The translations under genes were made by a program, and so were the position numbers. 64,000 nt of DNA, taken from positions 1-64,000 of the forward strand of contig JAILAR010000097.1 of the NCBI GenBank assembly GCA_024681515.1, read 5' to 3'. Below, one piece after another: positions 8,693-12,893 of this stretch (positions are counted from its first letter, which is position 1; the number at the start of each line of letters is the position of its first letter). A model generated the notes under the pieces. It was not told where the DNA came from. It was given only the letters and a program-made list of their open reading frames with translations, and ran no database searches. The stretch comes from Eubacterium sp. Its GTDB lineage: Bacteria; Bacillota; Clostridia; Lachnospirales; Lachnospiraceae.

Positions 8693-8823
8693 TTTTTTTC
8701 TCCAATTTTCGGATTATCGGCAAGTTATCTTCAGGATATCCACAGGTTTTTTCCAACTTATCAACAAATTCACAACAATTATAGACAACCTGAATTTAAA
8801 AATATTATTTTTGCCGACAAATG
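8693..8823. promoter_or_regulatory. yidD-yidC spacer with degenerate DnaA boxes
   Basis: This 131-bp gap upstream of yidC carries ATATCCACA (8736-8744) and TTATCAACA (8758-8766), each one mismatch from TTATCCACA, and TTATCTTCA (8725-8733), two mismatches away. All are in the same orientation. Whether DnaA binds here is an inference. Confidence 0.4.
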
Positions 8824-9440: not shown

Positions 9441-9575
9441 TTACGCGGAAAGTACTTTTCTTCCCTTAGCTCTTCTTGCAGACAGAACCTTGCGGCCGTT
9501 TGTCGTGCTCATCCTCTTTCTGAAGCCGTGTACTTTGGATCTGGAACGCTTCTTCGGCTGAAATGTCATCTTCAT
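9441..9575 (-). CDS. rpmH: Ribosomal protein L34
   Basis: A 44-aa protein too short for the ORF track: it begins [20 protein letters not shown] and ends GRKVLSA, the standard bL34 sequence, very rich in Lys and Arg. It is a structural component of the 50S subunit. ATG 9575-9573 is preceded on the minus strand by AAGGAG. It is the first gene leftward from oriC. Confidence 0.97.
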
Positions 9576-10017
9576 GGGTATTCACTCCTTTCCTTATTAA
9601 AGATAATAAAAATTATAAAACTATATGGTTTGTTCCCACTTTTGAGGGAAAACCTACAATATTCTATTAGAAACGACCGAAAAAGTCAAGTATTTCATTT
9701 TTCTTAGTTAACGTAATTATCCACATTTTGTTTATAATATGTGGATAACTTACTGCTAATCTGTGGATAGTATGTTTTTAAAAAATATAAAGTACGCTTT
9801 TACAGGCTCTTTCAGCGATTTTTCTATCAACAGTTATTTTTTTTCATTTTTCATAATATAGGCGGCTGTAATCGCCATAAAACCTTGTTATTTGAGCCAT
9901 TTTGTAGTATTATTATTACTGTGTGTTTTTATGCCTGTTTATACTTATATAATGCATATTTATGTTATTTCAGATAATATTTCAGACAGGGCTTTAGACT
10001 TAGATAGGAAAACTAAT
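9576..10017. other. oriC part 1: rpmH-dnaA spacer
   Basis: A 442-bp AT-rich divergent spacer. It holds a perfect DnaA box at 9717-9725 (+), a perfect one at 9740-9748 (-), and a one-mismatch box at 9762-9770 (-). The ORF track extends dnaA upstream through this region, but the translation is hydrophobic and unlike DnaA, so I treat it as non-coding. Promoters for rpmH and dnaA must lie here; I could not assign clear -35/-10 pairs. Confidence 0.85.
9717..9770. promoter_or_regulatory. DnaA-box cluster
   Basis: TTATCCACA at 9717-9725, its complement TGTGGATAA at 9740-9748 and TGTGGATAG at 9762-9770. The boxes are spaced roughly 22 bp apart. Confidence 0.88.
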
Positions 10018-11454
10018 ATGAGTGAAACATTAAATACCAATAAAACAATAAATGATGAATCCATAAAAGAAGCGATCATTGAAAACTGGGACAGTATCAT
10101 GAATGTGATGGAAACACAATATGACGTTCCAAATGTGATCATCGCTACCTGGATTCGTTCCATAAGTATTTATGACGTGCATGATAAAACCGTTTATTTT
10201 TATGTGGACGAGAAATTAGGTCTGCACGGAGTCGAGTATATTCACAGGAAAGGGTATCATGATTTTCTTCTTGCCTCCGTCCGTGAAGTTCTGAATGATC
10301 TGGATATTGAGATCCAGATCAATGAAAAAGACTTCTATATAAAGTCAGAACAGGAAAAGCTGGCCGAGAAGAATGAAAAAAAGCCGGAGCATAATGCCTC
10401 CGGTTCGGAAGAAAAGGAAAATCTCAATAAGAATTATACCTTTGAAAACTTCGTTGTGGGAGATAACAACAAACATGCCTTTGCAACCTGCGTTGCGGTT
10501 GCGGATGCACCCTGTCAGGATAATTTTAATCCTCTGTTCCTCTACGGGGGTCCGGGACTCGGCAAGACCCACCTGATTCAGGCGATCGCTCATTACATTA
10601 TAGACCACCATTCGGATATGAAAGTCCTGTATGTATCTTCCGAAGTATTTACAAATGATATCATTACTTCTATTAAAAGTAATCAGATGGAAGACTTCAG
10701 AGACCGGTACCGTCAGGTTGATGTTCTGATCATTGACGATATTCAGGAGATCATAGGAAGAGATCAGACGCAGAGAGAGTTTTTCAACACATTTAACTTC
10801 CTTTATGATCATGGGAAACAGATTGTTCTTTCTTCCGATCGTCCTCCAAAGGAACTTTCCACTCTGGAAGAACGACTTCGTTCCCGGTTTGAATGGGGTC
10901 TTCCCATCGATATCCATGCTCCTGACTATGAAACCCGTATGGCAATCCTGAAAAACAAGGCAAAGCTGATGGGAATCGTAAACATTTCGGAAGATATCTA
11001 TGTTTACATTGCAGAGAATATCGTCTCTAATGTAAGGGAACTGGAAGGTGCACTGAAGAAGTTTAATTTATACTCCACCATGCAGCATACTGCCATCGAT
11101 CTGAATCTGGCAAAGGAAATATTAAAGGATCTGATCTCCAAGGATTCAAATATATCCATTACGCCGGAATATATCCTGGAAGTTGTTGCAAAACAGATGA
11201 ACATCTCCATCGATGACATCAAATCCAAAAAGAGAAGCGCTGATATCGCCCTTGCCAGACAGCTGGTTATGTATCTTTCCAGGGAAATGACAGACAAGAG
11301 CCTGGCTTCCATCGGTGCTGTGGTCGGTGGAAAGGATCACTCCACCGTATTCAGCGGAATCAACCGCATTACCGAAAAGCTGGATAAGGATCCTGAATTC
11401 CGTCTCCGGGTATCTGCGATCAAAAAACAGATCAATCCGAACCAGGAATCTTAA
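10018..11454 (+). CDS. dnaA: Replication initiator DnaA
   Basis: The AAA+ initiator that binds DnaA boxes and opens the origin. It is 478 aa from ATG 10018, which follows AGGA with an 8-base spacer; the longer ORF from 9892 adds a hydrophobic stretch not found in DnaA. Domain I covers about residues 1-90, then a charged linker; domain III has Walker A GGPGLGKTH and Walker B VLIIDDIQEI with sensor VLSSDRPP; domain IV carries VGGKDHSTV, the DnaA signature with Lys where Arg is more common. dnaN follows after a 320-bp origin segment. Confidence 0.97.
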   Translation: MSETLNTNKTINDESIKEAIIENWDSIMNVMETQYDVPNVIIATWIRSISIYDVHDKTVYFYVDEKLGLHGVEYIHRKGYHDFLLASVREVLNDLDIEIQINEKDFYIKSEQEKLAEKNEKKPEHNASGSEEKENLNKNYTFENFVVGDNNKHAFATCVAVADAPCQDNFNPLFLYGGPGLGKTHLIQAIAHYIIDHHSDMKVLYVSSEVFTNDIITSIKSNQMEDFRDRYRQVDVLIIDDIQEIIGRDQTQREFFNTFNFLYDHGKQIVLSSDRPPKELSTLEERLRSRFEWGLPIDIHAPDYETRMAILKNKAKLMGIVNISEDIYVYIAENIVSNVRELEGALKKFNLYSTMQHTAIDLNLAKEILKDLISKDSNISITPEYILEVVAKQMNISIDDIKSKKRSADIALARQLVMYLSREMTDKSLASIGAVVGGKDHSTVFSGINRITEKLDKDPEFRLRVSAIKKQINPNQES

Positions 11455-11774
11455 TATAAAAGCCTGATTTATCCACATAGTTTTTATAACTGCGTGTTAG
11501 TAATCTATGGATAACCTTTATTTGAACTTTTTAAACAGATACAGTAACGATCTGAAACGGCATTGATAAAACTGAATCTGATGCTTTACAGATCTGAGAA
11601 AGGAATTTATCAAATACCTGTATCCACGTTATCCTAAGTGATACAAACATCAGAGAAGCCTTAATTTATAAGGACCCGGGGCTCTTTTCAACAAATCCAC
11701 AGCCCCTACTACTACTACGATATATTATATTTATTTATTATACAGCCGCGAAGGCAGGAGGCACGAAACATACC
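11455..11774. other. oriC part 2: dnaA-dnaN unwinding region
   Basis: A 320-bp non-coding spacer. It holds a perfect DnaA box at 11469-11477 (+), a one-mismatch box at 11506-11514 (-), weaker ones near 11620-11637, and AAATCCACA at 11693-11701. The last is followed by a short GC run, a TAC repeat and an AT-only stretch, matching the order described for the Bacillus unwinding site. Confidence 0.85.
11693..11743. promoter_or_regulatory. DnaA-trio and DNA unwinding element
   Basis: DnaA box AAATCCACA (11693-11701), GC-rich GCCCC (11702-11706), then four TAC repeats (11707-11718), i.e. 3'-GAT-5' trios on the opposite strand, then about 25 bp of nearly pure A/T (11719-11743). This is the box/GC/trio/AT order of the DnaA-trio system known from Bacillus subtilis. 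Confidence 0.8.
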
Positions 11775-12893
11775 ATGATCATCAAATGCAAGAAAAATCT
11801 GCTCACCTCTGCAATCAATATCGTATCCAAGGCAGTATCTACAAAAACGACCATGCCTATTCTGGAATGCATTCTTCTGAAAGCAGAAGGAGGAAAAGTA
11901 TATCTGACTGCAAATAATCTGGAACTTGGTATCGAGACAGTGATCGATGCAACGGTTTTGGAGGAAGGACAGGTTGCACTGGAAGCAAAGATCTTCTCGG
12001 ATATCATCCGAAAGCTGCCGGACAGTGAGATCGATCTTGAAACAACTTCGGATATACGCGTAGATATTCGATGCGAAAAATCCAAATTTACGATTCCCTG
12101 CAGATCCGGAGATGAGTTTTCACCGCTTCCTTCCATCGAGAAGGAGAACAGTATCCGCATCTCTCAGATGGCACTTCGCGATATCATCCGTCAGACGATC
12201 TTCTCGGTATCGGATAATGAAAGCACGAAGATGATGACCGGTGAATACTTTGAAGTAAAGGATAACCAGCTGATCGTCATTTCTTTGGACGGACATCGTA
12301 TCTCCAGAAGAAAGATAAACCTTGCAGGAGAAAATAAAGATGTTAAGGTTGTAGTTCCGGGCAAGACGCTGCAGGAACTCAGCAAGATCATCAACGGTGA
12401 TGCAGAAGATATGGTGGATATCTTCTTCTCAGACAGACATCTTCTTTTTGAATTTGAGGATACAAGGGTGGTATCCCGTCTGATCGAGGGTGAGTATTTT
12501 AAGATTACCAACATGATGACCATGGGTCATAGTCTGGCCGTTAAGGCGAATAAGAAAGAATTTATGGGAATCATCGATCGTGCCAGCCCACTGATCCAGG
12601 AGACGGATAAGAAGCCCATCATTGTCAGCGTAAAGAATGACAATAATCTTTATGTGAGACTGGATACAAATCTCGGTTCCATGAAGGAAGAGATGGAGAT
12701 AGAGAAAGAAGGAGACGAGATCATTATCGGCTTCAACCCGAAATTCCTCATGGATGCAATGCGCGTGATCGATGATGATGACGTTAATATTTATATGATG
12801 GATTCCAAGAATCCCTGTATCATCAAGGATGCAGAGGAGAGCTACGTATATATCATCCTGCCCATCAATATCAATACGGATGTATATGCTTGA
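11775..12893 (+). CDS. dnaN: DNA polymerase III beta clamp
   Basis: The sliding clamp, 372 aa, three-domain beta fold; it tethers polymerase to DNA and docks repair factors. The start MIIKCKKNLLTSAINIVSKA and the C-terminus YVYIILPININ are typical. The nearest strong ribosome site, AGGAGG at 11756-11761, lies 13 bases from ATG 11775, an unusually long spacing, with no better start in frame. It sits immediately after the unwinding element, first in a dnaN-S4-recF-gyrB-gyrA run. Confidence 0.96.
   Translation: MIIKCKKNLLTSAINIVSKAVSTKTTMPILECILLKAEGGKVYLTANNLELGIETVIDATVLEEGQVALEAKIFSDIIRKLPDSEIDLETTSDIRVDIRCEKSKFTIPCRSGDEFSPLPSIEKENSIRISQMALRDIIRQTIFSVSDNESTKMMTGEYFEVKDNQLIVISLDGHRISRRKINLAGENKDVKVVVPGKTLQELSKIINGDAEDMVDIFFSDRHLLFEFEDTRVVSRLIEGEYFKITNMMTMGHSLAVKANKKEFMGIIDRASPLIQETDKKPIIVSVKNDNNLYVRLDTNLGSMKEEMEIEKEGDEIIIGFNPKFLMDAMRVIDDDDVNIYMMDSKNPCIIKDAEESYVYIILPININTDVYA

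Follow-up and report, generated by a model that had tools for sequence, protein, structure and literature searches.

The window (the whole 64,000-nucleotide stretch of DNA analysed here) carries the gene order jag-yidC-rnpA-rpmH/dnaA-dnaN, with rnpA, yidC and jag upstream of dnaA on the opposite strand (Table 1). The first-pass annotation had placed an unwinding element directly before dnaN and had remarked on the long, 13-nt spacer of the dnaN ribosome site. Both statements are correct: the A/T-rich stretch ends at 11743 and is followed by AGGAGG at 11756–11761 and the ATG at 11775, and similar spacers, of about 12–14 nt, are found in close relatives. Between the A/T-rich stretch and the ribosome site lies a short GCC-N4-GGC dyad (11746–11755), which is retained in close relatives, in some of them altered on both arms. 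Among these relatives DnaA identity is 66–74%, against 84–90% for DnaN, so that DnaA evolves faster; the window DnaA (10018–11454) has no DnaA N-terminal domain among the Pfam matches listed.

Table 1. Genes and sequence features of the origin region, in window coordinates.
Feature	Position	Strand	Remarks
rpmH	9441–9575	−	44 codons ending RKVLSA, read from sequence; divergent from dnaA; left border of oriC1
oriC1 DnaA-box cluster	9717–9770		TTATCCACA 9717(+), TTATAAACA 9729(−), TTATCCACA 9740(−), CTATCCACA 9762(−)
dnaA	10018–11454	+	478 aa; Pfam-confirmed
oriC2 upstream boxes	11469–11514		TTATCCACA 11469(+), TTATCCATA 11506(−)
Distal DnaA box of unwinding module	11685–11693	+	TTTTCAACA; conserved in relatives
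Proximal DnaA box	11693–11701	+	AAATCCACA; 1-base overlap with distal box
GC-rich spacer	11702–11705	+	GCCC; read from sequence
Four perfect DnaA-trios	11706–11717	−	CTACTACTACTA; top strand CTA ×4; bound strand 3′-GAT-5′
Three TnnT units, strand opposite trios	11706–11717	+	Match to B. subtilis DnaD recognition element
Fifth, C-centred trio	11718–11720	−	Top strand CGA; bound strand 3′-GCT-5′
A/T-rich stretch, presumed DNA unwinding element	11721–11743		22/23 A/T
AGGAGG ribosome site	11756–11761	+	13 nt before dnaN ATG
dnaN	11775–12893	+	372 aa sliding clamp; Pfam-confirmed; ATG 11775

DnaA boxes flank dnaA on either side, as had been claimed, and show significant enrichment in each of the two intergenic gaps but not in the ORFs. 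The rpmH–dnaA gap holds three boxes at one mismatch or fewer, at 9717(+), 9740(−) and 9762(−), where shuffled sequence averages 0.14 and none of 200 shuffles has as many. Six are found in the dnaA–dnaN gap, at 11469(+) and 11506(−) and, at two mismatches, at 11620, 11629, 11685 and 11693, where the shuffle mean is 1.26 (0/200 shuffles); the same comparison gives no excess inside the dnaA or dnaN ORFs. This pair of clusters, one to either side of dnaA, is the arrangement of a bipartite oriC. In the whole genome, TTATCCACA has 51 copies against 7 for the reversed pattern.

The unwinding module itself had been described as a box, a GC run, four trinucleotides and an A/T stretch, and this order is exact: AAATCCACA, GCCC at 11702–11705, CTACTACTACTA at 11706–11717, and then 22/23 A/T. 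The box at 11693–11701 had been noted but its co-oriented partner, TTTTCAACA at 11685–11693, had been missed, and the trio unit is not TAC, as first read, because the phase anchored on the box gives CTA (3′-GAT-5′ on the bound strand). The components are those by which a basal unwinding system (BUS), predicted in 85% of 2070 species (PMC8287927), is recognised: a box with at most two mismatches within 16 bp of the trios (the spacer here is 4 bp), a second co-oriented box, a GC-rich spacer and an A/T-rich stretch in the expected order, and at least three trios with a central adenine (3′-NAN-5′), here the four CTA units at 11706–11717. The DnaD recognition element, which needs at least two TnnT opposite the trios, is represented by sequence with three. 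Apart from CTACTACTACTA, neither strand of the window has a run of at least four CTA units, and CTACTACTACTACG occurs once when up to two mismatches are allowed. A matrix covering the box pair, the spacer and six trios, and built only from other families and classes, scores 40.2 bits at 11685(+); the next best score in the 64 kb, both strands, is 4.8, and the largest in 30 simulated windows is 14.3. No second trio module was found upstream of dnaA in this 64-kb scan. Two features count against reading the region as such an origin: the trio-adjacent boxes TTTTCAACA and AAATCCACA have two mismatches each from the consensus, and the window has four or five trios against six in most relatives.

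A CCTT..AAGG inverted repeat (11658–11673) precedes the box pair by about 11–15 bp, and its spacing to the box is constant in close relatives (AAGG-N11-box). It resembled a hairpin in these relatives but was dropped as one, since the complementarity of its own arms is not above that of permuted arms, in a test that cut arms lying close together. Further boxes are scattered outside the dnaA gaps. In the yidC–rnpA gap, about 1 kb from oriC1, a cluster at 8736–8774 consists of ATATCCACA and then TTATCAACA overlapping AAATTCACA; it has an overlapping-pair geometry like that of the BUS, without trios, and is the second-best matrix match in the window. Two consensus boxes in opposite orientation, 140 bp apart (1433–1441 and 1580–1588), are found 8 kb upstream of dnaA. 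Elsewhere in the same genome, contig C180 (L318) has three consensus boxes in 350 bp (374–720), just downstream of an arginyl-tRNA synthetase-like ORF, and contig C15 (L319) has two opposed consensus boxes 4 bp apart in an inter-ORF gap (2201–2222).

The position of the origin agrees with the nucleotide skew. The cumulative GC-skew minimum of the window is at 11862. A relative assembled as one 3.86-Mb contig was sampled at 20 stretches, and its skew has a negative sign to one side of dnaA, a positive sign to the other, and reverses again near the opposite pole; this is the GC-skew switch of a chromosome origin.

For the comparison with relatives, dnaA–dnaN gaps were gathered from the genus, order, class, family and phylum. 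Loss of the trio sequence in relatives had been set beforehand as a refuting check, and the trios are kept: at least three in-phase A-centred trios are present in 46/46 distinct genus sequences and in 34/34 admitted order and class sequences, the latter selected with a score that included the trio columns. The genus consensus is TTTTCAACATATCAACA-GCCC-CTATTATTATTACTACTA and that of other families TTATCCACATATCCACA-GCCC-CTACTACTATTACTACTA. The perfect trios and the AAATCCACA box, which had been put forward as departures from Bacillus, are indeed present, but we rejected them as special features because both are common in Clostridia: L094, L098 and L180 likewise have perfect CTA runs, and AAATCCACA is the trio-proximal box in L122, L151, L158 and L180. 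The window origin thus joins an already known kind. On sequence and conservation together, the box pair, the spacer, the phase of the trios and the location are established, and a Bacillus-type DnaA-trio element in a bipartite oriC, as originally proposed, is the best reading, on which matrix score, conservation and architecture agree. We put the probability that the region is the chromosomal replication origin of a rumen Lachnospiraceae bacterium, a bipartite oriC with the BUS at 11685–11743, at about 0.93. It is ordinary in kind, with a normal BUS as in Bacillus and Clostridioides.

Like the B. subtilis BUS (DnaA-boxes 6/7 and DnaA-trios, incC), the window has two co-oriented boxes, a GC-rich spacer, 3′-GAT-5′ trios on the same strand, an A/T-rich stretch, conserved pocket residues and a location in the dnaA–dnaN gap. 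It differs in that both of its boxes are weaker than box 6, which is a consensus box, and overlap by one base, and in having four perfect trios and one C-centred trio where B. subtilis has CTACTATTACTTCTACTA. The module also lies much nearer to dnaN than in B. subtilis. With oriC2 of C. difficile it shares the bipartite oriC and a trio element, there CACCTACTACTATTACTACTATGA, beside an unwinding region between dnaA and dnaN; the C. difficile unwinding was shown by P1 nuclease, and the need for both parts of oriC, with looping between them, has been shown for C. difficile only (PMC7561715).

By analogy with B. subtilis and C. difficile, from which we infer binding, oligomerisation and opening at the window origin, domain IV of DnaA would bind the two co-oriented, overlapping boxes at 11685–11701, and further ATP-DnaA subunits would load from the box pair onto the bottom strand. 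Each adjacent pair of DnaA molecules would capture the first two bases of one trio, after which the A/T-rich stretch just before dnaN would open. In the structure from B. subtilis, capture involves the first and second base of every trio, and the second of them, the middle base, touches Asn187 through its amine (PMC10721633). The window DnaA has the equivalents of all five B. subtilis residues of the nucleobase pocket, N187, I190, I193, R202 and E228, that is, the ISM residues for dinucleotide capture. No DnaA relatives were found on viral contigs.

The larger result comes from the other genera of the same GTDB family, in which the trios look degenerate (CTA CGG CGG, or TGA AGA AGA). Here only the box pair, followed by a spacer fixed at 4 nt, was used to locate the module, which makes the phase independent of trio content, and one sequence was kept per distinct element (n = 93 other genera, six trios each, 558 trios). 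The middle base on the top strand is T in 385 trios, G in 159, A in 12 and C in 2; the DnaA-bound strand, in other words, has A or C at the trio centre in 97.5%, and G is preferred to C on the top strand with p = 9e-45. The outer positions are constrained as well, the first base on the top strand being G in only 4/558 and the third A or G in 520/558, and the pattern ends after trio six. Of the bases other than T, 92% are G at trio centres, compared with 3% over the 15 positions that follow (p = 2e-128). A stricter subset (n = 57) agrees, with T 234, G 101, A 7 and C 0. Elsewhere C-centred trios are rare (T 620, G 14, A 26 and C 6 over the genus, order, class and phylum sets, which were partly chosen on trio content and include 24 phylum rows transcribed by hand). 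Three consecutive in-phase trios are A-centred in 52/93 genera and A- or C-centred in 91/93, a possible reason why origins escape searches for NAN trios.

The trio code of the family can be written 3′-(not C)(A or C)(T or C, less often A)-5′, which fits recognition by DnaA of the amine on the central base. From these sequences we infer that DnaA reads an amine, of A or of C, at the trio centre, and that the family drifts between the two. The window shares in this code through one C-centred trio, CGA at 11718–11720. In B. subtilis, trios with cytosine in place of the central adenine still allow DnaA to drive opening in vitro and permit initiation in vivo, and the same 2023 paper raised natural C-centred trios as a mere possibility (PMC10721633); those C-substituted trios were engineered, whereas in the Lachnospiraceae C-centred trios are natural and frequent. 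A full-text search of the main texts of open-licence papers found no description of natural C-centred trios, and we regard the code as new only provisionally. An insertion of about three residues in the DnaA ISM loop, between the equivalents of I193 and R202, is present in most of the family's other genera (L183–L197, L198–L287) but not in the genus of the window; we discarded it as a cause of C-centred trios, since genera without it also have them and the trend is weak.

Could the trios be something other than a signal for DnaA? In the window, the CTA run might be a chance or slippage microsatellite beside dnaN, with the true opening site at another position, such as one upstream of dnaA. In favour of this, its repeats are perfect, and the closest relatives have imperfect trios at that place. 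Place, spacing and phase are nevertheless constant in every usable relative, including those whose trios do not form a repeat, and the 64 kb contain no second module, so that we give this explanation next to no credence. It is very improbable, too, that the family pattern reflects nothing more than a relaxed element drifting by mutation toward GC. Such drift would fit the rise in the number of C-centred (top-strand G) trios with dnaA GC3 (rho 0.44, p = 8e-6), yet it should also yield C through the usually commoner T-to-C transition, and the ratio of G to C is 159:2. Parsimony on the DnaA tree gives, at trio centres, 60 changes from T to G, 40 from G to T and 15 others, and the neighbouring A/T stretch has the opposite spectrum, with 188 from T to A, 37 from T to C and 10 from T to G; nor would such drift stop past trio six, as the pattern does.

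A more serious competitor, although still an unlikely one, is that a DnaD-like loader reads a conserved keto base (T or G) on the top strand, and that the bottom-strand amine read by DnaA is not the conserved property. Sequence cannot tell the two rules apart, as both give identical letters; B. subtilis DnaD does bind the strand opposite the trios, and a two-domain DnaB_2 (DnaD/DnaB-type) protein is encoded in 20/20 genomes tested. However, B. subtilis DnaD needs two TnnT (PMC10201434), and the thymines it requires are precisely what a G removes: TnnT is lost or below two copies in 30/93 other genera of the family, with none in 10. Against the keto rule stand also the activity of C in place of the central A, in vitro and in vivo (PMC10721633), and the retention of the pocket residues N187, R202 and E228 in 92/93, 93/93 and 93/93 genera, respectively.

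The window, with its three TnnT repeats opposite the trios, resembles the B. subtilis DnaD element (PMC10201434), whereas the family loader, unlike B. subtilis DnaD, has two DnaB_2 domains in one protein. Since TnnT is reduced in those 30 genera, although all 20 genomes tested encode this protein, the loader may read another signal there. In the genome of the window, contig C109 (3942–5533) has a two-domain DnaB_2 ORF followed by a DnaA-family AAA+ match below the curated cut-off, and the two ORFs are likely a helicase-loader pair. On balance we favour the view that natural trios follow an amine code, not NAN, with C-centred trios spread widely in the Lachnospiraceae, and that about one third of the genera dissociate the trios read by DnaA from the TnnT read by DnaD, implying a different strand-specific helicase loading.

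Taken alone, the window adds a rumen lineage to those with a known origin design, a routine result; the family comparison matters more. In the box-anchored trio pattern, evolution seems to support the biochemical claim of a trio amine read by DnaA, and natural origins that separate the signal for DnaA from that for DnaD would allow the second helicase-loading step to be tested.
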